Made by a program: the position numbers and the translations under genes. Positions 1 through 14,732 of a stretch of DNA of 64,000 bases are shown here, piece after piece. The stretch spans positions 1,054,001 to 1,118,000 of the forward strand of contig NZ_CP102592.1 of NCBI RefSeq assembly GCF_025666195.1, given 5' to 3'. Each line of letters opens with the position of its first letter. Within the stretch, counting starts at the first letter, position 1. This DNA comes from Xanthomonas sp. CFBP 8443 (GTDB lineage: Bacteria; Pseudomonadota; Gammaproteobacteria; Xanthomonadales; Xanthomonadaceae). The notes under the pieces were generated by a model, which did no database searches, was not told where the DNA came from, and saw only the letters and a list, made by a program, of their open reading frames with translations.

Positions 1-615
1 GACGCGCTGCAGGTGCTGCGCCAGGTCAAGCAGGGCGGGCAGGAGGTGTTCTACCGCAGCGACCAGCACTGGACCCAGCCGGCCGCCGACGCGGTGGCCG
101 TGGCGGTCGCCGCGCAGGTCCGCCAGCAGGTGCCGCGGCTGCAGGGCCAGGACGGCACCGGCATGGCCCTGGGCAGCGAGATCACCGAGCGCCGCTTCGG
201 CGACTTGGCCGAACTGTTCCTGACCGACGCGCAGCGCAAGGCGGTGGGCCGCGACACCTTCACCGTGCGCCGCCAGTCCGATCAGCAGGCGCTGCTGGAC
301 GACGCGCCGGCGCCGCTGCATGTCACCGGGCACAGCATGGTGCAGCCGTATTTCGGCTTCCCGCAGAAGCTGTCCAATCTGCTCGATCGCCCGGTGTCGG
401 TGAACTGGAAGCCCGGCAACGTCGGCCCCTGGGTGATGCTGCTGGAATACCTGGAATCGCCCGAGTTCCAGAAGACCAAGCCGCAGGTGCTGGTGTGGCA
501 GATGTTCGAGCCGTCCTATGGGCAGGGCCCGGATGCGCGCGGACAGTGGGACAACGCCTCGATCATGAGCGCGCAGCAGTGGCAGGCGCGCCTGCACAAG
601 GCCCTGGGACAGTAA
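1..615 (+). CDS. AlgJ/AlgX-like SGNH O-acyltransferase, 5'-truncated by window edge
   Basis: This is the C-terminal part of a periplasmic SGNH-fold acyltransferase of the AlgJ/AlgX type, which moves acyl groups onto exopolysaccharide. The frame is open from base 1, so the start lies outside the window; 204 residues are visible. The family's DxHW motif is seen as SDQHW (visible residues 20-24), giving the catalytic Asp and His. A GHSM motif has Ser at visible residue 112, a plausible nucleophile. The gene ends 4 bases before a second SGNH-like gene and begins a tight run with MBOAT, carrier protein, adenylating enzyme and AlgF-like genes. The family is clear; the polysaccharide and the acyl group are unknown. 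Confidence 0.8.
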   Translation, partial: DALQVLRQVKQGGQEVFYRSDQHWTQPAADAVAVAVAAQVRQQVPRLQGQDGTGMALGSEITERRFGDLAELFLTDAQRKAVGRDTFTVRRQSDQQALLDDAPAPLHVTGHSMVQPYFGFPQKLSNLLDRPVSVNWKPGNVGPWVMLLEYLESPEFQKTKPQVLVWQMFEPSYGQGPDARGQWDNASIMSAQQWQARLHKALGQ

Positions 616-619
616 GCCG

Positions 620-1744
620 ATGAGTGCACGTCCCGGCGCGCCTGCGCCCCTGCCTGCGGCGGCCCCGGCGCGCGCGCACGTGGTCACCGCGGTGGTGGTG
701 GTGCTGCTGCTGGTCGCCGGGCTGTTGTCCGGTGGCTGGATGCTGGGCCGCGCGCCGCTGCCGGCGGCGTCGCTGGCGCCGGCGCGCTGGGCCGACGGCG
801 AGGCCGGCCGCGCGATCAATCAGGCGCTGAAGCTGCCGCTGCAGGCGCAGGCCGACCTGGCCGGCGCGGCGTTGCGTTATCGGCTGCTCGGCGATGCCGG
901 GCCGCAGGTCGCGCTGGGCTGCCCAGGCTGGCTGTTCTACCGCGACGGCTTGCGTCCGCCCGCCGGCGCCGGCGAAGCGGTGTTCGCCCAGCGCGTGCGC
1001 TTGATGCGGCATTGGGCGCGGCAGCTGCAGGCGCAGGGCGTGCAGTTGCTGGTGGTGGCGGTGCCGGACAAGTCGCGGATCGAGCAGGCGCACACCTGCG
1101 GCCTGCGCCATTCGGCGCCGATGCGCGCGCGGCTGGGGCAATGGCACCAGGCGCTGGCCGCCGCCGGCGTGGCCTCGACCGACCTGCTGCCGGTGCTGCA
1201 GGCCGGCGACGCGCCGGTGTTCTTCCGCACCGACGTGCACATGAACCGGATCGGCGCGCAGCGCGCCGCCGATGCGGTGGCGGCCTCGGCGTTGCCGCTG
1301 CTCGGTGGGCGCGGCGCGCAGGCCTTCGCGGTCGGCGCGCCCGGCGCGCCGACGCCGCGGATGGGCGACCTGATCGTGCTGGCCGGGCTGGAACATGCGC
1401 CGCCGGCCTGGCGCCCGGCGCTGGACCGCGAGCCGCAGCAGACCATCGCGCCGCTGCGCAGCGGTGGCCTGCTCGACGACACGCCGCCGGTGGAGGTGCT
1501 GCTGCTGGGCAGCTCCAACGGGCGCCGCAGCCTGTTCGGCGAACGCCTGGGCCACGCCCTCGGCCGCGAAGTGTGGAACCAGAGCCTGGACGGCGGCCAG
1601 TTCTCCGGCGCGTTGCTGGCGGCCTGGCCGCAGCGCAGGCAATGGCCGCCGAGCCTGAAGCTGGTGGTCTGGGAATTCTCCGAAATGGCCCTGTCGCTGC
1701 CGCTGACCGACGGCGAACGCGCGGCGCTGGCCGAGATCGACTGA
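620..1744 (+). CDS. Second AlgJ/AlgX-like SGNH acyltransferase-type protein
   Basis: This 374-residue protein has an N-terminal membrane anchor (about residues 19-42, Val/Leu rich) and a periplasmic SGNH-like domain. The Asp-His part of the active site appears as TDVHMN (Asp at residue 205), with Met where AlgJ/AlgX proteins normally have Trp. A GSSNG motif places a candidate nucleophilic Ser near residue 298. ATG at 620 follows the previous stop by 4 bases, so the two are translationally coupled. Two SGNH proteins with one MBOAT partner suggests paralogous transfer steps, or a catalytic plus a binding subunit as with AlgJ and AlgX. Function is inferred from fold motifs and context. Confidence 0.7.
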   Translation: MSARPGAPAPLPAAAPARAHVVTAVVVVLLLVAGLLSGGWMLGRAPLPAASLAPARWADGEAGRAINQALKLPLQAQADLAGAALRYRLLGDAGPQVALGCPGWLFYRDGLRPPAGAGEAVFAQRVRLMRHWARQLQAQGVQLLVVAVPDKSRIEQAHTCGLRHSAPMRARLGQWHQALAAAGVASTDLLPVLQAGDAPVFFRTDVHMNRIGAQRAADAVAASALPLLGGRGAQAFAVGAPGAPTPRMGDLIVLAGLEHAPPAWRPALDREPQQTIAPLRSGGLLDDTPPVEVLLLGSSNGRRSLFGERLGHALGREVWNQSLDGGQFSGALLAAWPQRRQWPPSLKLVVWEFSEMALSLPLTDGERAALAEID

Positions 1745-1757
1745 GCGCCGACCGACG

Positions 1758-3338
1758 ATGCTGTTCAACTCCTTCCTGTTCCTGCTGATCTTCCTGCCGG
1801 TCGCGCTGGGCGTGCACTACCTGCTCGGCGCGCTGCAGCCGCGCCTGGCCGCGCTATGGCTGTGCGTGGCCTCGATCGTGTTCTACGGCTGGTGGAACCC
1901 GCAGTTCGTGGTGCTGCTGGCCGGCTCGATCGTGTTCAACTACCTGGTCAGCCTGGCGATCCTGTCGCTGGCCAAGCGCCCCAGGCTGCAACTGCTGGTC
2001 ACCGCGCTGGGCGTGGCCGCCGACCTGGTGCTGCTGGTGCACTACAAGTACTTCGCGGCGATGGTCACCTTCGCCCACGACGCTGGTTTCAACGTCGGCC
2101 CGATGGATGCGTTGATCCTGCCGCTGGGCATTTCCTTCTTCACCTTCACCCAGATCGGCTACCTGCTCGACTGCCGCGCCGGCGTGGTCAACGACCGCAG
2201 CCCGCTCAGCTACGTGCTGTTCGTGACCTTCTTCCCGCACCTGATCGCCGGCCCCATCCTCCACCACAAGGAGATGATGCCGCAGTTCAGCAAGCGCGAG
2301 ACCTACCGCTTCCACGCCGACAACCTGTCGGTCGGCGGCATGCTGTTCGTGATCGGCCTGGCCAAGAAAGTGCTGCTGGCCGACAGCATCGCGCCGTACG
2401 CCGACGCCGGTTTCGCCAGCACCGGCGAGGTGCAGTTCTGGGGCGCGTGGGCCACCGCGCTGAGCTACGCGCTGCAGCTGTACTTCGATTTCTCCGGCTA
2501 TTCGGACATGGCGCTGGGCCTGGCGCGGATGTTCGGCATCCGCTTCCCGCTCAACTTCAACTCGCCCTACAAGGCGACCAGCGTGATCGATTTCTGGGCA
2601 CGCTGGCACATGACCCTGACCCGCTACATCACCGCCTACCTGTACTACCCGGTGGCGATGGCGGTGACCCGCTGGCGCACCCGCCACGGGCGCGCCACCG
2701 GCCCGGCCGCGGTGGCCTCGGCCGGCGGCTTCGCCTCGATGATCGTGCTGCCCACGGTGTGGGCGATGGGCCTGGCCGGGATCTGGCACGGCGCCGGCCT
2801 GCAGTTCCTGATCTTCGGCCTGCTGCATGCCGCCTACCTGGCGATCAACCACGCCTGGCGCATCTTCGTCGGCGGGCGCAAGCCGGCGGCGCTGCGCACG
2901 CTCAACCCGCTGCAGCATGCCGGCTACCTGCTGCTGACCTTCGTCGCGGTGCTGTTCGCGCAGGCGTTCTTCCGCGCCGACGGCGTGCACGCGGCGTGGC
3001 AGCTGGTGCAGGGCATGGCCGGCCTGCGCGGCTGGGAAAGCCTGGACAACCTCGGCCACATCGCCGGCATGGGCGCGGCCGACGGCTGGCGCCTGCTGGC
3101 CGGTCACCACCTGCAGCTGCTCTACATCGCCGGATTGCTGGCGGTGGTGTGGCTGGCGCCCAACGCGCACCAGATCATGGGCGTGTATTCGCCTGCGCTG
3201 GCCAAGCCGAGTCCGGCACCGCGCGCGTGGATGCGCTGGCAGCCCAACCTGCCGTGGCTGCTGCTGATGCTGTCGCTGCTCGCGCTGTGCCTGTCGAGCC
3301 TGCACAAAGAATCGCGTTTCCTCTATTTCCAGTTCTGA
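1758..3338 (+). CDS. MBOAT-family membrane acyltransferase (AlgI/DltB-like)
   Basis: This 526-residue polytopic inner-membrane protein belongs to the MBOAT family, which includes AlgI (alginate acetylation), WssH (cellulose acetylation) and DltB (teichoic acid D-alanylation). It opens with the typical MLFNSFLFLL segment. The two conserved histidines are seen in WARWHMTL (His near residue 284) and GIWHGAG (His near 344). AlgI-type proteins pass an acyl group across the membrane to periplasmic SGNH transferases; DltB takes its aminoacyl group from the carrier protein DltC. Here the next gene is a carrier protein, so a DltB-like donor with AlgJ-like acceptors is the best reading. It follows the SGNH gene by 13 bases. 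Confidence 0.9.
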   Translation: MLFNSFLFLLIFLPVALGVHYLLGALQPRLAALWLCVASIVFYGWWNPQFVVLLAGSIVFNYLVSLAILSLAKRPRLQLLVTALGVAADLVLLVHYKYFAAMVTFAHDAGFNVGPMDALILPLGISFFTFTQIGYLLDCRAGVVNDRSPLSYVLFVTFFPHLIAGPILHHKEMMPQFSKRETYRFHADNLSVGGMLFVIGLAKKVLLADSIAPYADAGFASTGEVQFWGAWATALSYALQLYFDFSGYSDMALGLARMFGIRFPLNFNSPYKATSVIDFWARWHMTLTRYITAYLYYPVAMAVTRWRTRHGRATGPAAVASAGGFASMIVLPTVWAMGLAGIWHGAGLQFLIFGLLHAAYLAINHAWRIFVGGRKPAALRTLNPLQHAGYLLLTFVAVLFAQAFFRADGVHAAWQLVQGMAGLRGWESLDNLGHIAGMGAADGWRLLAGHHLQLLYIAGLLAVVWLAPNAHQIMGVYSPALAKPSPAPRAWMRWQPNLPWLLLMLSLLALCLSSLHKESRFLYFQF

Positions 3339-3351
3339 CAAGGTGAACCCC

Positions 3352-3582
3352 ATGGACATGCAGACCCTCCAGACCCAGCTAACCGACATCGTCGAGAGCG
3401 TGATCGGTACCCGCGTGCAGCCCGACGAATACATGGAGTCGCTGTTCGACTCGATGTCCAAGGTGCAGCTGATGGTCGAGGTCAAGGACCGCCTCGGCGT
3501 GACCCTGCCGATCGACGAGATCGACACGCTGGTCGAATCGGTGCAGGTGCTGGCCGACTACGTCGCCGCGCACCAGCGCTGA
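3352..3582 (+). CDS. Acyl/peptidyl carrier protein, DltC-like
   Basis: This small acidic carrier protein has 76 residues from the chosen start. The 4'-phosphopantetheine site is in the motif FDSMSK, with Ser34 as the expected attachment point, followed by the usual helix of a carrier domain. I chose ATG 3352 because AAGGTGA lies 6-7 bases upstream; GTG 3343 would add three residues but falls inside that ribosome-binding site. It lies between the MBOAT gene and a DltA-like adenylating enzyme, the arrangement of dlt loci, so it probably carries an aminoacyl thioester to the membrane transferase. A fatty acyl cargo is less likely given the partner enzyme. Confidence 0.88.
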   Translation: MDMQTLQTQLTDIVESVIGTRVQPDEYMESLFDSMSKVQLMVEVKDRLGVTLPIDEIDTLVESVQVLADYVAAHQR

Positions 3583-3608
3583 GCCGGGCCACCAGCGGAG
3601 CCGCCGCC

Positions 3609-5084
3609 ATGCGCTTTGATTTCGACCAGTGCCGTTTCGTCGAGCGCGAGCAGGCGCCGCATGCGCCGGCGTTGCGCGATGCTGCCGGCGTGCTGGACTG
3701 GGCCGGGCTGTACCAGGCCACGCAGGACTGGATCGCGCGCGCGCAGCAGGCCGGCGTGCAGCCTGGCCATGCGTTGGTGATTTCCGGCCATAAGCAGTCC
3801 GCCTTCGTGGTGGCCATGCTCGGCTGCCTGCAACTGGGCGTGACTTACGTGCCGGTGGACACCATCAATCCGCCGGCGCGGCTGCAGCGCATCACCGCGC
3901 TGGTGCATGCCGCGGCGGTCTACGACGCGGCGGCCGATACGTTCGGCCCCGGCGCCGACGACGCGCGCGCGCTGGCGGTGCCGGACCTGGCCTACATCAT
4001 GTTCACCTCCGGCAGCACCGGCGATCCCAAGGGCGTGCAGATCGGCCGCGACAGCGTGGCGCTGTTCGCCGGCTGGATCCGCGATTGCCTGGCGCTGGGG
4101 CCGGCGCCGGCGTTCCTCAACCAGATGCTGTTCAGCTTCGATTTCTCGCTGTTCGACCTGTGCGGCGCGCTCGGCCTGGGCGGCTGCTGCGTGCTGTGCC
4201 CGCGCGAGGTGATCGCCGACAGCGAACGCTTCGTCGACCACCTGCGCGATGCCGATGTGGCGGTGTGGGCGTCCACGCCCTCGTTCGTGCGCCAGCAGCT
4301 GCTCAACCCGCGCTTTTGCGCCGAACACCTGCCCACGCTGCAGGTGTTCGTGTTCGGCGCCGAATCTTTGACCCCGCGCTTGGCCGAAGAGTTGTGGGCG
4401 CGCTTCCCGCAGGCGCGTATCGTCAACTCCTATGGCCCGACCGAAGCCACCTGTTCCACCACCTGGGTGGAGATCGATGCCGCACTGCGCGCGGCCGCGC
4501 CCAACCCGTTCCCGATCGGCGTGGCCAAGCCGTATGCGCAGGTGTTCATCGACGGCGGCGAGATCTGCATGGCCGGCGACCACGTGATGCGCGGCTATCT
4601 GGAGCGCCCGGACCTGGACCAGGGCGTGCTGTTCGAGCACGACGGCAAGCGCGCCTACCGCAGCGGCGACCTGGGCGAAATCGATGCGCAGGGCCGCCTC
4701 TATTTCCGCGGCCGCAAGGACGACCAGATCAAGCTCAACGGCTACCGCATCGAACTGGCCGAAGTGGATGCGGCGCTGTCCACCCTGGACGGCGTGGTCG
4801 CCGGTGCGGCGGTAGTGCTGCGCCGGCCAGACGGCAGCCTGGTGCGGATGATCGGCTTCGTCGAACTGGCCGCGCCGGGCGCAGGCGCAGTGCAGCCGCT
4901 GCCCGACGCCTTGCAGGACTGGAAGCGGCAGCTCGGCCAGCGCGTGCCGCCATACATGATTCCCTCCGAACTGATCGCCGTGGACGCGTTGCCCACCGGC
5001 GCCACCAACAAGGTCGATCGCAAACAACTGGAGCAGCGCTACGCACTGGCGCGCACGCTCCGCAGCCAGGAAACCAAACGATGA
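3609..5084 (+). CDS. Amino acid adenylating enzyme, DltA-like
   Basis: This 491-residue stand-alone adenylation-domain protein should activate an amino acid with ATP and load it on the adjacent carrier protein. Visible core motifs are FTSGSTGDPKG (about residues 132-142), NSYGPTEAT (from 273), YRSGDLGEI (from 350), the GRKDDQIKLNGYRIE hinge region, and NKVDRK with the catalytic Lys near 468. Overall it looks closest to D-alanine ligase DltA, including the STPSF segment. Two binding-pocket positions differ: the DltA Cys that contacts D-alanine corresponds to Gly250 (FVFGAES), and the FDFSLF segment puts Phe at pocket positions. The substrate is therefore uncertain; it may be larger than D-alanine. 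Confidence 0.88.
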   Translation: MRFDFDQCRFVEREQAPHAPALRDAAGVLDWAGLYQATQDWIARAQQAGVQPGHALVISGHKQSAFVVAMLGCLQLGVTYVPVDTINPPARLQRITALVHAAAVYDAAADTFGPGADDARALAVPDLAYIMFTSGSTGDPKGVQIGRDSVALFAGWIRDCLALGPAPAFLNQMLFSFDFSLFDLCGALGLGGCCVLCPREVIADSERFVDHLRDADVAVWASTPSFVRQQLLNPRFCAEHLPTLQVFVFGAESLTPRLAEELWARFPQARIVNSYGPTEATCSTTWVEIDAALRAAAPNPFPIGVAKPYAQVFIDGGEICMAGDHVMRGYLERPDLDQGVLFEHDGKRAYRSGDLGEIDAQGRLYFRGRKDDQIKLNGYRIELAEVDAALSTLDGVVAGAAVVLRRPDGSLVRMIGFVELAAPGAGAVQPLPDALQDWKRQLGQRVPPYMIPSELIAVDALPTGATNKVDRKQLEQRYALARTLRSQETKR

Positions 5085-5767
5085 AACCGATCATGACCCT
5101 GCTTGCCGGCGCGGTGCTGGCCCTCTCGCCGCTGGCCGCCAGCGCCCAGCAGGGCGCATCGGAAGGCCGCCTCGCGCAGCTGTATGCCGCGCGCCCGCCG
5201 GCCGGTTCGGCGTTCGTGCGCGTGCTCAACCCGGGCAGCGCCGCGCTCGCGGTCGGCGTCGGCAACGGTGCCGAGCAGCGCATCGGCCCGGCCGTCCGCG
5301 CCACCCGTTACGCCATCGTCGAAGGCGGCAAGCCGTTCGCGGTACGCGTGGCCGGCAAGGCGCGCCAGCAGGCGCAGGTCGCCGCCGGCAGCTTCACCAC
5401 GCTGGTGCTGGACCCGGCCGCGCCGGCGCGGCCGCTGGCGGTACTGGCCGACGGCGGCGGCAGCAGCGACGCGCTCAAGGCCGAGATCCGTTTCTACAAC
5501 CTGGCCAGCGGTTGCAGCCAGGCGCGGCTGGCGATGGCCGACAACGGCCCGGTGGTGTTCCCGACGGTCGCCGCGGGCGCCAGCAGCGCGCGCGCGATCA
5601 ACCCGGTCCAGGCGCGCCTGGTCGCCGCGTGCGGCGGCAAGGACAGCGCGCCGTTGGCGCTGCCGCCGTTGCAGCCCGGCGACCACTACAGCCTGTTCCT
5701 GAGCGGCAGCGCCGCCGCGCCGGTCCTGCAGGGCCAGCTCAGCGGCACCGATCCGGTGGGCCGCTGA
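5081..5767 (+). CDS. AlgF-like periplasmic protein of polysaccharide acylation
   Basis: The start at ATG 5081 overlaps the stop of the adenylating enzyme (ATGA). The 228-residue product has a clear signal peptide ending LAASAQQ (cleavage near residue 23) and two similar beta-rich halves with an FVRVLNPG and a later IRFYNLASG segment, as in AlgF. AlgF-family proteins work in the periplasm with AlgI and AlgJ/AlgX in acylation of alginate and, as WssG, of cellulose; their biochemical role is an acyl relay or adaptor. Presence of this protein beside DltA/DltC-like genes is what makes the locus a hybrid. Family assignment rests on size, signal peptide, segments and context. Confidence 0.75.
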   Translation: MKPIMTLLAGAVLALSPLAASAQQGASEGRLAQLYAARPPAGSAFVRVLNPGSAALAVGVGNGAEQRIGPAVRATRYAIVEGGKPFAVRVAGKARQQAQVAAGSFTTLVLDPAAPARPLAVLADGGGSSDALKAEIRFYNLASGCSQARLAMADNGPVVFPTVAAGASSARAINPVQARLVAACGGKDSAPLALPPLQPGDHYSLFLSGSAAAPVLQGQLSGTDPVGR

Positions 5768-5769
5768 GC

Positions 5770-6903
5770 GTGATCGAGCGCGCCGTCTTCCGCGAAGACC
5801 ATGCCCTGTTCCGCGAACAGGTGCGGCGTTTCATCGACGCACAGATCGCCCCGCACTACGCGCAATGGGAACGCGACGGCATCACGCCGCGTTCGCTGTG
5901 GCGCGCGGCCGGCGCCGCCGGCCTGCTCAACTGCCAGCTGCCCGAGCCCTACGGCCTGGGCGGCGACTACGGGCATGCCGCCTGCGTGATCGAGGAACTG
6001 GCGCGGGCCAATTTCCTCGGCATCGGCTTCTCGATCCATTCGGACATGGCCGCGCCGTACCTGATGCAGTACGGCAGCGACGCGGTACGCGATGCCTGGC
6101 TGCCGAAGATGGCGCGCGGCGAGGCGATCGGCGCGATCGCGATGACCGAGCCCGGCGCCGGCAGCGACCTGAAGGCGATCCGTACCCGTGCCGAACGGCA
6201 CGGCGATCACTACCTGCTCAACGGCCAGAAGACCTGGATCACCAACGGCAGCAACGCCGACGTGGCGGTGGTGGTGGCCACGGTGGCGCCGGAGCTGGGC
6301 GCGCGCGGATTGACCTTGTTCTGCGTCGATACCGCGCTGCCCGGCATCAGCCGCGGCGCGCCGATGGCCAAGATCGGCCAGCACGCGCAGGACACCAGCG
6401 AGCTGTTCTTCCAGGACGTGGCGGTGCCGGTCTCGCACCTGCTCGGCGAGGAGCAGCGCGGCTTCGACTACCTCGGCGAACAGCTGGCTGCCGAACGCCT
6501 GGCGATCGCGCTGCGCGCGGCCGCCTCGGCCGAAGGCATGCTCGCCGAGACCATCGCCTACGTGCGCCAGCGCAAGGCGTTCGGCCGCCACCTGATCGAC
6601 CACCAGAACACCCGCTTCGTGCTCGCCGATGCGGCCGCGCGGCTGGCGATGCTGCGCAGCTTCCTCGACCAGTGCCTGGACGCGCAGCTGCAGGGCCGGC
6701 TGCAGGCCACCACCGCGGCGATGGCCAAGCTCAACGCCACCGAGATCCAGGGCCAGGTGCTGGACGCGCTGCTGCAGCTGCACGGCGGCTACGGCTACAG
6801 CAGCGAGTACGGCATCGGCCGCGCCTGGGCCGACGCGCGCGCGTTGCGCATCTTCGGCGGCACCAGCGAGATCCTGCGCGACATCATCGGCCGCGCGCTG
6901 TAA
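5770..6903 (+). CDS. Acyl-CoA dehydrogenase family flavoprotein, possibly acting on the carrier-bound acyl group
   Basis: GTG 5770 starts 2 bases after the algF-like stop. The 377-residue product is a full-length acyl-CoA dehydrogenase: AMTEPGAGSD and GQKTWITNG line the flavin/substrate site, and the C-terminus has QLHGGYGY and RIFGGTSEI. The residue before GTS is Gly, not the Glu of medium-chain enzymes; a candidate catalytic base is Glu242 in AAERLAI, the position used by isovaleryl-CoA and long-chain enzymes. In pyrrole antibiotics an enzyme of this family oxidises prolyl-S-carrier protein, and its partners are a stand-alone adenylating enzyme and carrier of the same sizes as here. A similar oxidation of a carrier-bound amino acid is an inference, not shown. 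Confidence 0.85.
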   Translation: MIERAVFREDHALFREQVRRFIDAQIAPHYAQWERDGITPRSLWRAAGAAGLLNCQLPEPYGLGGDYGHAACVIEELARANFLGIGFSIHSDMAAPYLMQYGSDAVRDAWLPKMARGEAIGAIAMTEPGAGSDLKAIRTRAERHGDHYLLNGQKTWITNGSNADVAVVVATVAPELGARGLTLFCVDTALPGISRGAPMAKIGQHAQDTSELFFQDVAVPVSHLLGEEQRGFDYLGEQLAAERLAIALRAAASAEGMLAETIAYVRQRKAFGRHLIDHQNTRFVLADAAARLAMLRSFLDQCLDAQLQGRLQATTAAMAKLNATEIQGQVLDALLQLHGGYGYSSEYGIGRAWADARALRIFGGTSEILRDIIGRAL

Positions 6904-6938
6904 CAAGCGCCACGGCTTCTGCCGAGGCGTGCACGGCG

Positions 6939-7955
6939 CTACTGGCGCCCGGCGCGCCACTGCCGGCGCAGCGCCTGCGCGCGCGGGGTGTCCTGCGACA
7001 GCCACGGATCCAGCGCGAAGGCGAAGATGCCGGCGGCGCCGCTGGCGTGCGCCCATGCCAGCTGCTTGCGGATGCGCGCGGCATCGGCGGTCTGCGCCTG
7101 GAAGTTGCTGCCGTCGGCGGCCGAGCTCGGCAATTGCTCGAACAGTTCGACCACCACGTCGAAGTCGACCTGGCGCGCGCGCAGCAGCGCCAGCAGCGGA
7201 TCCACGCCATCCAGGTTGTCCAGCCCGGCCACGCCGACCCCGTCCTGCACCATCGGCCGCAGCGGCACCTGGTCGAGGATGCGGGTCCACAGCTGCGCCA
7301 GCGAGCCGTCGGTCTGCAGCCGGCTGAAATAGGTGGAGATCGCGGTCGGCTGCGCGGTGCCGGCGCTGGCCGCAGCGCAGAACGCGGCGAGCCAGGCGCA
7401 CAGGCGCTGCTGGCGCTCGTCCTGCGCCCAGTGGAACTGCTCCAACTCGTAGGGCAGGTACCAGCCGTCGAAGTTGCCCTGCGCGGCCCACGGCGCGCGC
7501 AGCAGGTAGGCGCGGGCGTTGTCCAGGGTCAGCGCCAGGAAGGCATCCAGCGCGGCCAGGTCCGGCGTCTGCAGCGCCTTCCACCAGCCGCTGTGGTAGG
7601 GCAGGCCGACCCGCACCCGCAAGCCCGCCGCAGCGGCGGTGGAGAAGATCAACTGCATCACGCTGTCCGGCACGTCCCAGTCCGCATCGCCGCCGCTGCC
7701 GTACAACCCTGCCCACTGCACCACGATCTGGCGGCAGCCCATGCGCTGGGCCAGCGCCATGTGCTGCTGCCAGTCCTGCGCGCTCATTTCCAGGTGGCTG
7801 CGCCAGGGCTGGATGAAACCGCCGTCGAACCGCGGCGGGTTGGCGCAGCCCGGCAGCAGGCTCGCGCCGAACGCGGCAGGCGCGAGCACGGCCAGCCGTA
7901 GCAGGTCGCGGCGACTGAGCGGGAAGGGACGGGATCCAGGGCGAGCGTTGTTCAT
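6939..7955 (-). CDS. Putative DUF4434-like lipoprotein (predicted TIM-barrel glycosidase)
   Basis: This 338-residue protein converges on the acylation locus. The N-terminus has a twin-arginine motif (LSRRDLLRLA) followed by LLPGC, so it may be Tat-exported and lipid-anchored. The mature part starts with GGFIQPW and contains VVQWAGLYG, a conserved WYLPYELEQF and repeated barrel-like strands, which match my recollection of DUF4434 proteins, predicted (beta/alpha)8 enzymes found near exopolysaccharide genes. Glu in YLPYELE is a possible catalytic acid, by inference. ATG 7955 is preceded on its strand by GGAAGC. A role in trimming or releasing the modified polysaccharide fits the neighbourhood. 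Confidence 0.65.
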   Translation of the reverse strand: MNNARPGSRPFPLSRRDLLRLAVLAPAAFGASLLPGCANPPRFDGGFIQPWRSHLEMSAQDWQQHMALAQRMGCRQIVVQWAGLYGSGGDADWDVPDSVMQLIFSTAAAAGLRVRVGLPYHSGWWKALQTPDLAALDAFLALTLDNARAYLLRAPWAAQGNFDGWYLPYELEQFHWAQDERQQRLCAWLAAFCAAASAGTAQPTAISTYFSRLQTDGSLAQLWTRILDQVPLRPMVQDGVGVAGLDNLDGVDPLLALLRARQVDFDVVVELFEQLPSSAADGSNFQAQTADAARIRKQLAWAHASGAAGIFAFALDPWLSQDTPRAQALRRQWRAGRQ

Positions 7956-8288: not shown

Positions 8289-9950
<1,662 letters not shown>

Positions 9951-10088: not shown

Positions 10089-11588
10089 CTAGGGGCGCGC
10101 CGTCGGCATCTGGCCGGCGCGACGCTGACGCTGCCGGTAGCGCAGCGTGCACGCCACCAGCAGCAGCATCGCCAGCCACTCGCTTGCCAGCGCCGTCTGC
10201 ATCGCCGCCAGGCTGCCGCCGCCGTGCGCATGCGCGTAGACCGCGCCCAGCGCCGCCGGCCCCAGGCCCATCGCGGCCTGCAGGATGGTGGAGAGCATGG
10301 CGCTGCCGGCACCGGCGTGCTCGGTCGGCACCTGCGACAGGCCGATGCGGTAGAAGCAGGCCACGATCCACGCCTGGCCGGCCCCGATCAGCGCCGTCGG
10401 CGCCGCCAGGTCGCGCCAGCCGGGATGCGGCCAGGCCGCGTGCAGCGTCCAGGCCAGCGCCAGCAGGCCCAGCATCTGCACCGTACAGCCCAGCAGCAGC
10501 GTGGGCAGCAGCCCGAACCGGGCCACCGCACGCGCGCTGACCAATGCCGAGCAGAAATACGCCGCGCCGAGCACGATGAAGGCATTGCCCGACTGCAGCG
10601 GTGACAGTCCCGCGCCGGCCTGCAAGGTCAGCGCGAGCACGAACATGAAGCCGCTCCAGCAGGCGAAGAACAGCGCGCCCAGCAGCAGCGCGAAGCGCAC
10701 GCTGGGCAGGCGCAGCAGCGCCGGCGGCAACAGCGGCTGGCGGCCGCGGCGTTCCTGCCATGCCTCGGTACGGGCCAGCGCCACCAGCAACGGCAGCGTC
10801 GCGGCCAGCACCGCCAGGCACGGCGCGGACCAGTGCAGCGTGGGGCCGAGCGCCAGCGGCAGCAGCAGGCAGGCCAGGAACAGCCCCAGCAGGCCGGCGC
10901 CGGCCAGGTCCGGCGGCGTCCGCCGCGCGGCGCGGGTCTCCGGCACCGAGCGCAGGCCCGCCAGCGCCAGCACGCAGAACGGCAGGTTGATCAGGAAGAT
11001 CGCGCGCCAACCGGAACCGGCGATGTCGGCGCTGACCAGGGTGCCGCCCAGCACCTGGCCGATGACGAACGCGATCCCGCCCAACGAGCCGTACAGCGCC
11101 AGCGCACGCGCATGCGCCTCGCCGCGCAGGCTGACGTGGATGGTGGCGAGGATCTGCGGCACCGCCAGCGCCGCGCCCAGGCCCTGCAGCACGCGCCCGG
11201 CCAGCAGCGCCGCCACCGATCCGGCCGCCCCGCACAGCAACGAGGCCAAGCCGAACAGCAGCACCCCGGCGGCGAACACCCGGCGCCGGCCCAAGTTGTC
11301 GCCCAGTCGCCCGCCCGCGGCCAGGCCCACCGCGAAGGCCACGCCGTACACCGCCACGATCAGTTCCAGCGCCATCGCCGAGGCGTGCAGCGTGTGGGCG
11401 ATGGAGCCGAGGGCGACATTGATGATGGAAAAGTCGATCAGCGGCAGCATCTGGCCGATCAGCAGGATCGCCAGCCCGCGTGCGCCCAGGGTCGGCGCCG
11501 CGGCGTCGGGGTGGGCGCACCGCGGCGGGTGCCGGTCGCGGCGATCGACGGGCGTGGGTGCGGCGGGGGAGGGACAGGAGGTGGTCAT
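10089..11588 (-). CDS. MFS transporter, DHA2-like multidrug exporter
   Basis: This 499-residue protein has many hydrophobic segments consistent with the 14-helix DHA2 group of drug:proton antiporters. The first helix reads LAILLIGQMLPLIDFSIINVAL, split here as LAILLIGQMLPLIDF and SIINVAL, with the family's D-x-x-I-x-N-V-A-L pattern. GGRLGDNLGRRRVF is the loop 2-3 motif and VLQGLGAALAVPQI resembles the motif after helix 4. The start at 11588 gives a Pro-rich cytoplasmic tail; no clear internal start is better. It is divergent from an XRE-type regulator, so that protein probably controls it. Substrate unknown. Confidence 0.88.
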   Translation of the reverse strand: MTTSCPSPAAPTPVDRRDRHPPRCAHPDAAAPTLGARGLAILLIGQMLPLIDFSIINVALGSIAHTLHASAMALELIVAVYGVAFAVGLAAGGRLGDNLGRRRVFAAGVLLFGLASLLCGAAGSVAALLAGRVLQGLGAALAVPQILATIHVSLRGEAHARALALYGSLGGIAFVIGQVLGGTLVSADIAGSGWRAIFLINLPFCVLALAGLRSVPETRAARRTPPDLAGAGLLGLFLACLLLPLALGPTLHWSAPCLAVLAATLPLLVALARTEAWQERRGRQPLLPPALLRLPSVRFALLLGALFFACWSGFMFVLALTLQAGAGLSPLQSGNAFIVLGAAYFCSALVSARAVARFGLLPTLLLGCTVQMLGLLALAWTLHAAWPHPGWRDLAAPTALIGAGQAWIVACFYRIGLSQVPTEHAGAGSAMLSTILQAAMGLGPAALGAVYAHAHGGGSLAAMQTALASEWLAMLLLVACTLRYRQRQRRAGQMPTARP

Positions 11589-11698
11589 GGCGCGCAGTAT
11601 GCGAACCCTCTAAACTGGTACAAGTAGTTATTTATCATGGTACTGGCGCTTCCTGCCTGTGACTCGGTTCGATGCGCGGACCCGGACGGAGAACACCA
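11589..11698. promoter_or_regulatory. Divergent promoter region between MFS exporter and XRE regulator
   Basis: The stretch 11610-11645 is AT-rich in a GC-rich setting. On the minus strand TTGTAC (11623-11618) and CATACT (11601-11596) are 16 bases apart and could drive the exporter with almost no leader. TGGTAC occurs twice, at 11616 and 11638, 22 bases (about two helical turns) apart, a possible operator pair. No experimental support. Confidence 0.35.
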
Positions 11699-12649
11699 AT
11701 GCTCAATGATCGGCTGTCTCCCACCAGCGCTGCGGCGGGCAGCGCCGCCGTCGCCACGCACGGCCCGGCGCTGGCCGTCGAACGCGCCCGTGCGCTCGGC
11801 GCCTTCCTGCGCGCGCGCCGCGAGAGCCTGGATCCGGCGCGGTTGGGCCTGCCGCGTGCCGGCAGGCGCCGCACGCCGGGCCTGCGCCGCGAGGAGGTGG
11901 CCGCGCTCGCCGATGTCGGCGTCACCTGGTACACCTGGCTCGAACAGGGCCGGCCGGTGCGCGCCTCCGCGCGCGTGCTGACCGCCATCGCCGGCGCCCT
12001 GCAGTGCTCGGATGTGGAGACCGGCCACGTGCTGGCGCTGGCCGGCCTGGGCGATGCGGTGCAGCGGCTGCAGCCGCCGTGCGAGCGGCTGACCGATACC
12101 GGGCGCATGCTGCTCGATCAGCTCGGTCCCTGGCCGGCGATGCTGCAGAGTCCGCGCTTCGACATCCTGGGCGCCAACCTCGCTTTCGAACGTCTGATGG
12201 GAGTGACCCTGGCGGAGCTGCCCGAAACCGACCGCAACTGCGTCTACCAGGCGTTCACCAACCCGTGCTGGCGCGCGCGCCTGGTCGACCGGGACAACGT
12301 CCTGCAGCAGATGGTGGCGCTGTTGCGCGCCGCCATGGGCGAGCACCTGGGCGAACCGGCATGGGAGCGCCTGCTGGCGCGGTATCGCGACGCCTCGTCC
12401 GAGTTCGACGCGCTGTGGCGGCAACGGCGCGAGGTGCGCGGCGTGGAAAACCAGCTCAAGCGCTTCCACCATCCGCAGGTCGGCGAGCTGCAGCTGCAGC
12501 AGGTCAACTGGTGGTCGGCGCCGCGCAACGGCAACCGGCTGGTGGTCTACCTGCCTGCCGACGAAGCGGCGCGGACGGCGCTGCTGCAGCTGCATGCGCA
12601 GCCGGCCGGCGTCGCCGCGGCGGGCAGTGGCGAAGCGCACCGCCACTGA
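11699..12649 (+). CDS. XRE-family transcriptional regulator with MmyB-like ligand domain
   Basis: From ATG 11699 (GGAGAA 5 bases upstream) the product has 316 residues. An N-terminal helix-turn-helix includes LGAFLRARRESLDP, the hallmark RRTPGLRREEVAALA and VTWYTWLEQGR. The C-terminal part, with LLDQLGPWPAMLQSPRFDIL and a conserved NLAFERLMG segment, matches the MmyB-like PAS-type domain that binds fatty-acid-like ligands in actinobacterial relatives. An upstream ATG at 11672 would add nine residues but lacks a ribosome-binding site. Divergent orientation makes the adjacent MFS exporter the likely target, with ligand-responsive repression an inference. Confidence 0.88.
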   Translation: MLNDRLSPTSAAAGSAAVATHGPALAVERARALGAFLRARRESLDPARLGLPRAGRRRTPGLRREEVAALADVGVTWYTWLEQGRPVRASARVLTAIAGALQCSDVETGHVLALAGLGDAVQRLQPPCERLTDTGRMLLDQLGPWPAMLQSPRFDILGANLAFERLMGVTLAELPETDRNCVYQAFTNPCWRARLVDRDNVLQQMVALLRAAMGEHLGEPAWERLLARYRDASSEFDALWRQRREVRGVENQLKRFHHPQVGELQLQQVNWWSAPRNGNRLVVYLPADEAARTALLQLHAQPAGVAAAGSGEAHRH

Positions 12650-13478: not shown

Positions 13479-14732
13479 ATGTTCCCGCGCGACGCCCGCA
13501 TCGAAACCTACGATCCCGAACTGGCCCAGGCCATCGCCGCCGAAGCCGGCCGCCAGGAAGACCATGTCGAGCTGATCGCCAGCGAGAACTACTGCAGCCC
13601 GCGGGTGATGGAAGCCCAGGGCAGCCAACTGACCAACAAGTACGCCGAGGGCTATCCGGGCAAGCGCTACTACGGCGGCTGCGAATTCGTCGACATCGCC
13701 GAGCAGTTGGCGATCGACCGGGTCAAGCAGCTGTTCGGCGCCGACTACGCCAACGTGCAGCCGCACAGCGGCTCGCAGGCCAACCAGGCGGTGTACTTCG
13801 CGCTGCTGCAGCCGGGCGACACCATCCTGGGCATGTCGCTGGCCCACGGCGGCCATCTGACCCACGGCGCCAAGGTCAACGCCTCCGGCAAGCTGTTCAA
13901 CGCGGTGCAGTACGGGGTGAACGAGCAGGGCCTGATCGACTACGACGAAGTCGAGCGGCTGGCGCTGGAGCACAAGCCGAAGATGGTCGTCGCCGGCTTC
14001 TCCGCGTATTCGCAGAAGATCGACTGGGCGCGCTTCCGCGCCATCGCCGACCAGGTCGGCGCGGTGCTGTTCGTGGACATGGCGCACGTGGCCGGCCTGG
14101 TCGCCGCCGGCGTGTATCCGAGCCCGATGGACCACGCGCACGTGGTCACCTCGACCACCCACAAGACCCTGCGCGGCCCGCGCGGCGGCATCATCCTGGC
14201 CAAGGGCGCGAGCGAGGAACTGGTCAAGAAGCTGCAGTCGATCGTGTTCCCGGGCATCCAGGGCGGCCCGCTGATGCACGTGATCGCGGCCAAGGCGGTG
14301 GCGTTCAAGGAAGCGCTGGAGCCGGAATTCAAGGACTACCAGCAGCAGGTGGTGAAGAACGCGCAGGCGATGGCCAAGACCCTGATCGCGCGCGGCTACA
14401 AGATCGTCTCCGGCGGCACCGAGAACCACCTGATGCTGGTGGACATGATCGGCAAGGACGTGTCCGGCAAGGACGCGGAAGCCGCGCTGGGCAAGGCCCA
14501 CATCACCGTCAACAAGAACTCGGTGCCCAACGACCCGCGCTCGCCGTTCGTGACCTCGGGCCTGCGCCTGGGCACCCCGGCCATCACCACCCGCGGCTAC
14601 CTGGAGCAGGACAGCATCGACCTGGCCAACTGGATCGCCGACGTGCTCGACGCCCCGGCCGATGCCGCGGTCATCGCCCGCGTGCGCGAGGCGGTGACCG
14701 CGCAGTGCAGGAAGTATCCGGTGTATGGCTGA
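13479..14732 (+). CDS. glyA: Serine hydroxymethyltransferase
   Basis: This 417-residue cytosolic PLP enzyme interconverts serine and glycine while charging tetrahydrofolate, the main source of one-carbon units. The start MFPRDARI is preceded by a GGAG box. Key segments are [23 protein letters not shown], and [14 protein letters not shown], with the PLP-binding Lys at residue 229. Length equals that of the E. coli enzyme (417). It heads the glyA-nrdR-riboflavin block. A heptamer-repeat element begins 4 bases after the stop. Confidence 0.98.

Follow-up and report, generated by a model that had tools for sequence, protein, structure and literature searches.

A candidate aminoacylation module in an nfr-type exopolysaccharide operon

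We analysed a 64,000-nucleotide stretch of Xanthomonas sp. CFBP 8443 (hereafter the window; positions 1,054,001-1,118,000, or G000:C1:1054001-1118000, of a 5.24-Mb single-contig genome), which opens within a tightly packed run of genes. We propose that this locus forms the modifying half of an exopolysaccharide operon of the nfr type, in which an adenylating enzyme (hereafter the ligase) would load an amino acid onto a carrier protein, and membrane and periplasmic proteins would pass it to the polymer. Judging from the genes present, we put the probability of such carrier-fed aminoacylation at roughly 70%. A first-pass annotation of the same DNA had described the gene series SGNH-SGNH-MBOAT-carrier-adenylating enzyme-AlgF-acyl-coenzyme A (acyl-CoA) dehydrogenase as a merger of two systems in one tight operon. 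We recovered that series, nearly gapless, at window positions 1-6903, and found that a single operon-like run combines a Dlt-related loading pair with a transfer set of the AlgJ/AlgF type. The annotation had taken the system to extend over positions 1-7955; the run holds as far as 6903, but positions 6939-7955 encode a DUF4434 protein on the minus strand, in convergent orientation, and the start of the unit lies 8.8 kb upstream of the window. The genes are listed below, with L002 denoting the 20 kb directly upstream of the window in its own coordinates.

L002:11193-12386, same direction as the window genes: wecB, epimerase domain PF02350 (372 bits)
L002:12383-14602, same direction as the window genes: bcsB-like gene
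L002:14609-16753, same direction as the window genes: nfrB
L002:16750-19575, same direction as the window genes: nfrA
L002:19578 to window 615, plus strand: SGNH1, 345 residues, AlgX/AlgJ-type (Pfam ALGX 236.9 bits for the full protein)
620-1744, plus strand: SGNH2, AlgJ-like (Pfam ALGX 218.5 bits; PDB AlgJ 2e-18)
1758-3338, plus strand: MBOAT protein, 526 residues, with a C-terminal acyl-shuttle hexapeptide FLYFQF (Pfam MBOAT)
3343-3582, plus strand: carrier protein, 79 residues, phosphopantetheine serine in an FDSMS motif (Pfam PP-binding over cut-off)
3609-5084, plus strand: stand-alone amino-acid adenylating enzyme, a Dlt-related ligase with an altered pocket (Pfam AMP-binding, NCBIfam DltA)
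5081-5767, plus strand: AlgF-like periplasmic protein (Pfam AlgF 62 bits, cut-off 34; PDB AlgF 6czt 5e-9)
5770-6903, plus strand: acyl-CoA dehydrogenase-like flavoprotein, GTG start (Pfam acyl-CoA dehydrogenase domains over cut-off)
6939-7955, minus strand: DUF4434 gene, YbcH homologue (Pfam DUF4434 171 bits; 28% identity to E. coli YbcH, 2e-12)

Features were called from Pfam curated cut-offs, NCBIfam models and PDB sequence matches. The Pfam cut-offs were exceeded for ALGX (both SGNH proteins), MBOAT, PP-binding, AMP-binding, AlgF and the dehydrogenase domains, and the C-terminal AMP-binding domain of the ligase scored slightly under its cut-off. SGNH1 starts 423 bases before the window, and its last 204 codons lie inside. 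From wecB to the dehydrogenase gene, the last of the run, the gaps are -4, 6, -4, 2, 4, 13, 4, 26, -4 and 2 bases, and the 11 genes look like a single operon. The convergent DUF4434 gene is a conserved neighbour outside the run.

An Nfr synthase lies directly upstream

The first-pass annotation had suggested searching upstream for a polysaccharide synthase, and one was found there, NfrB/NfrA. NfrB scores 1150 bits on NCBIfam PRK15489 (cut-off 537), has GT2 domains and an MshE-type cyclic di-GMP (c-di-GMP) motif over its cut-off, and is 42% identical to E. coli NfrB; it falls below the strict NfrB equivalog model (641 of 1170 bits). The NfrB motif residues that we tested (TED, QxxRW and the MshE-type c-di-GMP motif) are kept in 51 of 51 loci from the set described below, except for one glycine kept in 50 of 51. 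NfrA carries the NfrA_C domain PF13283 (66 bits over 25). The wecB gene, which would supply UDP-N-acetylmannosamine (UDP-ManNAc), overlaps the next gene by 4 bases. Judged by these matches, the synthase of the run is a c-di-GMP-type NfrB/NfrA system, and because wecB, the bcsB-like gene, nfrB and nfrA lie directly upstream in the same run, we take it to be the exopolysaccharide synthase that the modification genes would serve.

In E. coli, the nfr system has been proposed to make a polymer of N-acetylmannosamine (ManNAc) and to serve as the phage N4 receptor (PMC8669469, PMC8669472). Both of these mBio papers describe genes of the alginate or O-acetyltransferase type in some nfr clusters; their main texts nowhere use the words alanine, acyl, carrier or Dlt. 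NfrB, NfrA, YbcH and WecB all have homologues at the Xanthomonas locus. The E. coli K-12 operon, in contrast, consists of nfrB, nfrA and ybcH without modification genes, which the Xanthomonas run has.

The association of synthase, loading pair and transfer set is conserved

We collected 59 loci (the Xanthomonas locus, 9 named loci and 49 fetched stretches) and kept 52 distinct ones, the Xanthomonas locus included. Left out were L102, a cluster with an internal deletion; L192, which was fetched for its dehydrogenase and whose ligase match is another AMP-binding enzyme; and L101, L147, L152, L173 and L191, which repeat genomes already in the set. One further ligase match, at a contig edge (G694), is not in the locus set.

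NfrB and NfrA lie upstream of the ligase in 51 of the 52 loci, the exception being a 6.4-kb contig end (L143). Fifty loci keep the order NfrB, NfrA, SGNH1, SGNH2, MBOAT, carrier, ligase, AlgF; in Stenotrophomonas daejeonensis (L005) AlgF precedes SGNH1, and in L143 only the last three genes are visible. The DUF4434 gene is present in 51 loci, in 50 of them on the opposite strand. As a control, we took from the same scan 71 loci of other adenylation domains (14 Gram-negative Dlt-type and 57 others, some of them short, the smallest 4.9 kb), and at 1e-5 none of the 71 had NfrB, NfrA, either SGNH protein, AlgF, the dehydrogenase or DUF4434. Co-occurrence of the MBOAT, carrier, adenylating enzyme and AlgF genes in other genomes, a check that the first-pass annotation had proposed, was borne out, with the full order in 50/52 loci versus 0/71 controls with NfrB or AlgF. 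We conclude that the association of these genes is more than chance.

The ligase was found in 6 of 297 genomes of the Xanthomonas family (one, G261, with a partial gene), in 1 of 369 genomes of the class (the genome studied here), in 13 of 378 genomes of the Pandoraea family and in 8 of 398 of a Pseudomonas genus. In the Achromobacter family 60 of 268 genomes had a match at E 1e-120, 23 of them with the 57-71% type and 37 with relatives of at most 54% only. Plasmids held no close relative of the ligase (best 42%) or the MBOAT (best 44%). As a separate observation, L102 (G261:C1:3109000-3128999), from the same genus, is a cluster without the stretch from SGNH1 to mid-ligase, and its dehydrogenase match covers only residues 27-222.

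This arrangement bears on whether the MBOAT, SGNH pair and AlgF carry out ordinary O-acetylation of the Nfr polymer from acetyl-CoA, with the ligase and carrier serving an unrelated pathway. Acetylation is the published view of such nfr clusters (PMC8669469, PMC8669472), and among MBOAT relatives at 58-62% identity some are named AlgI or alginate O-acetylase by their sources, while others of the same list are named DltB. However, in every locus but L005 (51 of 52) the MBOAT and AlgF genes flank the carrier and ligase genes, and a sister nfr cluster described below likewise pairs this type of MBOAT with a carrier and an FkbH loader. We therefore regard O-acetylation with an unrelated loading pair as improbable.

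The ligase is Dlt-related and has an altered pocket

Among the NCBIfam models the ligase scores best against DltA, at 337 bits under a cut-off of 560. A tree of 65 ligases unites the 52 nfr-type enzymes in one group (100/100) next to the Achromobacter Dlt-type ligases, with a program warning that some long branches meet; Achromobacter pestifer (G664) has ligases of both types. By this placement the ligase is Dlt-related by descent.

The amino group is bound by Asp197 in Bacillus cereus DltA, where enantiomer choice depends to a large extent on Cys269 (PMC4176424). We located the Cys269 position through the FCGE motif of DltA-type genes in the fetched loci, B. cereus DltA itself being outside the alignment. 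Asp178 of the ligase, the counterpart of the Asp with which DltA binds the amino group, is present in 52/52 nfr-type enzymes, and the selector Cys for D-alanine is replaced by Gly in 52/52. All 11 pocket positions (DFFS-V-G-A-S-C-S-K) are common to 46 of the 52. The Achromobacter and Photorhabdus Dlt-type ligases, with DLYS-L-C-G-T-V-A-K, differ from them at 8 of 11 positions, and the ligases of Fictibacillus, Periweissella and Streptococcus have DLMS-[LY]-C-G-S-V-A-K. At the selector position, 24 comparison ligases have Cys in 16 cases (including all 7 Achromobacter Dlt-type enzymes), Ile in 5, Gly in 2 and Ala in 1. Because the selector Cys is replaced by Gly, the cargo is probably a small alpha-amino acid other than D-alanine. 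Aminoacylation of an exopolysaccharide, as the first-pass annotation had proposed, gains from the joining of the loading pair to the nfr synthase run, and is here modified in that the amino acid is probably not D-alanine.

These data also allow plain D-alanylation to be weighed, in which the ligase and carrier would in effect be DltA and DltC and the polymer would bear D-alanyl esters. D-alanine is the usual cargo of the family, DltA is the best model, and the nearest ligases in the tree, those of Achromobacter, keep the Cys; D-serine has also been reported as a Dlt-family cargo (PMC12071552). Against this stand the differences in the pocket, the Gly at the selector position in every nfr-type ligase, and the scores of the locus below the cut-offs for DltA, DltB and DltC. 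In addition, the C269A change in B. cereus DltA lowers affinity for D-alanine and raises it for L-alanine (PMC4176424). We consider D-alanylation unlikely, though less so than O-acetylation, and favour an amino acid other than D-alanine.

The carrier lies at the same place, adjoining the ligase, in all 52 loci (45 by tblastn, 5 by pattern and 2 by reading frames), with a DSL or DSM motif, and its best PDB match is a D-alanyl carrier protein (2e-4). The combination of ligase, carrier and dehydrogenase, which we take to resemble the Plt set, led us to consider pyrrole-2-carboxylate as the product. This candidate was not favoured: the dehydrogenase is far from prolyl-acyl carrier protein (prolyl-ACP) dehydrogenase (197 of 650 bits on the RedW model; 166 bits, compared with 338 for long-chain acyl-CoA dehydrogenase, LCAD), and the ligase scores 186 bits against a solved prolyl-carrier ligase versus 237 against DltA.

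Other pocket types were seen among the comparison loci. The Dlt-like ligases of L017-L020 and L023 (Kosakonia, Pectobacterium, Pluralibacter and another enterobacterium) have Ile for the selector Cys, each with a separate frame ending in FXYXXF, and perhaps reflect another cargo in Gram-negative Dlt systems. A third pattern, DNFS-x-G-G-V-C-I-K, occurs in the ligases of L033 and L037 (Desulfovibrionaceae).

The MBOAT is built like the CoA-fed type

In 51 of 52 loci the MBOAT has His344 and terminates in FLYFQF; in L178 the gene is frame-shifted and FLYFQF is visible in another frame. PatA acylates the tyrosine in a C-terminal FXYXXF peptide, and the same peptide is described on the Dlt microprotein DltX (PMC12148441). 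Among 19 Dlt loci the MBOATs are 372-425 residues long and none has the shuttle peptide at its end, whereas in 16 of the 19 loci FXYXXF terminates a separate frame located within 6 kb, a count made without a chance control. The Xanthomonas run leaves no room for a separate DltX gene between the listed genes, and the peptide lies inside the MBOAT (the scan for separate frames ending in FXYXXF covered the Dlt loci only). Hydrophobic segments at 446-464 and 498-516 lie beyond the DltB-aligning part, as described for the fused kind (PMC12148441). Identity of the MBOAT to the DltB proteins from six Dlt loci is 25-30%, and 22 such MBOATs split from these DltB proteins at 100/100 in a tree.

According to a 2025 study, MBOAT-SGNH pathways other than Dlt are without a carrier protein, evidently because acyl-CoA is used (PMC12148441). 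Because FLYFQF is fused to a longer protein, as opposed to the Dlt MBOATs with the peptide on a separate frame, the MBOAT is by its predicted architecture of this CoA-fed kind, yet it stands beside a carrier and its ligase. Taking the two trees together with the architecture, which weighs more for the MBOAT than its tree, the view of the locus as a hybrid by descent holds, with a Dlt-related ligase and an MBOAT outside the DltB clade.

The periplasmic proteins point to an alginate-type transfer step. SGNH1 has a signal-peptide-like N-terminus, and its window part has AlgJ as best PDB match (2e-10); its catalytic D162/H164/S253 are kept in 51 of 51 loci. SGNH2 has an N-terminal hydrophobic anchor (residues 21-39) and keeps D205/H207/S299 in 51 of 51. 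An anchored SGNH2 with a signal-peptide-bearing SGNH1 would match an AlgJ/AlgX-like split. In a search of the full SGNH1, ALGX was the only domain found at E up to 0.1. In Pseudomonas aeruginosa, AlgF binds AlgJ and AlgX (PMC10641220).

The acyl-CoA dehydrogenase may be an optional step

The dehydrogenase is present in 41 of 52 loci and follows AlgF directly in 41/41. It is missing from nine Pandoraea-type loci, S. daejeonensis and G932, and was absent from the whole genomes of G663, G662 and G221 at 1e-100. In 10 of the 11 loci without it the ligase pocket is unchanged at all 11 positions, and the selector residue is the same either way. Where present, the enzyme looks intact: the catalytic Glu242 is kept in 41/41. 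Because Glu242 is also found in 9/9 comparison acyl-CoA dehydrogenases, in an alignment that holds no prolyl enzyme, its conservation does not discriminate between substrates. The median identity of the dehydrogenase is 68%, compared with 66% for the ligase, and 16 clade-specific sites separate it from seven paralogues and two solved relatives. By sequence and fold it is closest to LCAD. Among 262 genomes of the Xanthomonas family, a close dehydrogenase (at least 88%) occurs in 5, all with the ligase (in G261 both are partial), and 3 others have 45-53% relatives and no such ligase.

The first-pass annotation had suggested that the amino acid is oxidised while bound to the carrier. This would extend aminoacylation rather than replace it, and would give the polymer a dehydroaminoacyl group or the keto acid formed by its hydrolysis. 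The invariant Glu, the strict place after AlgF, conservation equal to that of the ligase, the clade-specific sites and the constant company of the close form with the ligase in the Xanthomonas family are in keeping with it. Dehydrogenases of the same fold act, by the titles of their PDB entries, on carrier-bound proline (4irn) and cysteine (7xp7). The suggestion was nevertheless not borne out beyond being possible, given the loci that lack the gene with the pocket unchanged and the resemblance to LCAD rather than to dehydrogenases of carrier-bound amino acids; we hold it only tentatively.

Equally tentative is the view that the dehydrogenase acts on an acyl-CoA and either shapes a precursor or is an accessory, so that only unoxidised aminoacyl groups reach the polymer. 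The closeness to LCAD and the absence of the gene from the loci and genomes named above speak for it. So does its nearest outside relative, a second copy (59%) in Diaphorobacter (L192:9474-10604, G666:C1), which lies beside an AMP-binding enzyme in a CoA-type gene neighbourhood outside any nfr cluster. On the other side, the operon has no other recognised CoA enzyme, and the position and sequence of the dehydrogenase are strongly conserved. Visual inspection of the regions following the dehydrogenase in five loci, made with no family search, showed no enzyme in common other than DUF4434.

We also examined residues that co-change with loss of the dehydrogenase, fixed in three lineages. Two MBOAT sites (241 and 384) and three NfrA sites were found, and none in NfrB, SGNH1, SGNH2, the ligase or AlgF. 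Because a control over all 84 triples of lineages, run for the MBOAT and not for NfrA, gave at least 2 MBOAT sites in 30 triples, the MBOAT sites are no evidence of a link and this signal was dismissed.

A sister cluster has a different loader

In the Achromobacter family, one (G674) of the 14 genomes without the nfr-type ligase has a 62% MBOAT. Its cluster (L207; G674:C1:1613000-1632999, minus strand) contains NfrB, NfrA, AlgF, SGNH1, SGNH2, FkbH, a carrier, an MBOAT ending in FLYFQF and a convergent DUF4434 gene. FkbH scores 323 bits over 147 on TIGR01686, the carrier exceeds the PP-binding cut-off, and a glyoxalase-family protein resembles methylmalonyl-CoA epimerase, under the cut-off of that model. 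In this single cluster, the ligase and dehydrogenase are replaced by FkbH, the carrier and the epimerase-like gene. In polyketide pathways, FkbH proteins load carriers with glyceryl groups. Because one sister nfr cluster has an FkbH loader with a carrier instead of the ligase, the comparison suggests that loading modules are exchangeable among nfr clusters.

The S. daejeonensis cluster (L005/L101) looks like a recombinant. Its NfrB, SGNH2, MBOAT, carrier and ligase are 74-82% identical to those of the Xanthomonas locus (MBOAT 82%), whereas NfrA, AlgF and SGNH1 are more divergent (37-48%). Set against the sister cluster and the Xanthomonas locus, respectively, NfrA is 48% and 30% identical and SGNH1 53% and 49%, and AlgF is no closer to one than to the other (44% and 45%).

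Other genes around the run

A bcs-type cellulose gene set (GH8 and BCSC_C domains) precedes the nfr run at L002:1-9919, making two synthase systems near neighbours. Further into the window are ordinary neighbours: an ABC ATPase (8289-9950, minus strand), an MFS transporter (10089-11588, minus), a helix-turn-helix regulator with an MmyB-type domain (11672-12649, plus) and a serine hydroxymethyltransferase (13479-14732, plus). A transfer RNA scan of the window found none.

Discussion

The protein families at this locus are known ones, and what appears new is their wiring, a carrier and ligase beside a fused-shuttle MBOAT on an nfr polymer. We found no report of a ligase and carrier with nfr or with an alginate-type MBOAT in the portion of the open-licence PMC literature consulted. 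With the Dlt system (DltABCDX, teichoic acid D-alanylation) the locus has in common a ligase of the same family, and would share ATP-dependent loading on a stand-alone carrier followed by MBOAT and SGNH transfer; it differs in the shuttle peptide fused to the MBOAT, the pocket that is not of the D-alanine type, the separate MBOAT clade, the AlgX-type SGNH proteins, AlgF and the NfrB synthase upstream. With AlgI/AlgJ/AlgF/AlgX alginate O-acetylation and PatA/PatB it shares an MBOAT with a fused FXYXXF tail, an AlgJ-like SGNH (Asp-His-Ser) and AlgF (PMC12148441, PMC10641220), but such pathways are described as having no carrier, evidently because of their use of acyl-CoA (PMC12148441), whereas carrier and ligase genes are present here. 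SGNH1 further differs from its alginate counterpart in having the ALGX domain only. AlgX has a second, carbohydrate-binding domain. Judging by entry titles and model names, the prolyl-ACP and prolyl-peptidyl carrier protein dehydrogenases (4irn, RedW) and ColB1 have the fold of the dehydrogenase and act on carrier-bound amino acids; the latter is only 33% identical to ColB1 over a structural alignment, and LCAD is closer. The AlmE/AlmF/AlmG system, which glycylates lipid A in Vibrio, has a transferase and an acceptor that differ from those here. It resembles the locus as a Gram-negative ligase and carrier that esterify an amino acid to an envelope glycan (AlmE: PMC12930378).

We infer the following sequence of events. 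WecB would supply UDP-ManNAc, NfrB, activated by c-di-GMP, would polymerise it, and NfrA would export the polymer. The ligase would use ATP to activate a small alpha-amino acid and load it on the carrier, from which the MBOAT may take the aminoacyl group at the cytoplasmic face onto the tyrosine of its own C-terminal FLYFQF. The membrane-anchored, AlgJ-like SGNH2 and the soluble, AlgX-like SGNH1, bridged by AlgF, would receive the group at their serines and hand it on to hydroxyls of the outgoing polymer, with the dehydrogenase as an optional step. Gene content, order, conservation, catalytic residues and ancestry are established by the comparison. The identity of the polymer, the direction of transfer, the amino acid and the part played by the dehydrogenase are what we deduce from them.

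Several points weigh against this reading. The relay and its chemistry are predicted from the genes. The pocket cannot name the amino acid: with GrsA positions that we assigned by motif and presume to be correct, DFFS-V-G-(A)-S-C-S-K fits, to our knowledge, no amino-acid code. Conservation of the carrier is low (median 38% identity to the Xanthomonas carrier), and its match to DltC falls under the curated cut-off. DltB is the only NCBIfam model matched by the MBOAT (175 of 375 bits, below the cut-off), and the MBOAT tree holds no experimentally known AlgI. In favour of the reading, the divergence of all eight other genes compared follows that of the ligase (rank correlation 0.73-0.88, pairs of 38 loci), but these values come from related genomes and are not independent. 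Finally, both mBio papers take neighbours of this type to be acetyltransferases (PMC8669469, PMC8669472).

A wider proposal, which we consider somewhat doubtful, is that MBOAT-SGNH relays fed by carriers, with loaders that can be exchanged, decorate nfr exopolysaccharides: a ligase for an amino acid other than D-alanine here, with optional desaturation on the carrier, and FkbH with a glyceryl-type acid in the sister cluster. The clusters described here appear to break the published rule that MBOAT-SGNH pathways other than Dlt have no carrier (PMC12148441). If carrier-fed aminoacylation is correct, nfr clusters taken as acetylating would be aminoacylating, the proposed phage receptor polymer would bear a charge-altering substituent, and loading modules would have been swapped between clusters. 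If the wider proposal is also correct, these relays would form a general class of envelope acylation whose chemistry is set by the carrier rather than by CoA, and a dehydroaminoacyl ester would be a new polysaccharide substituent.

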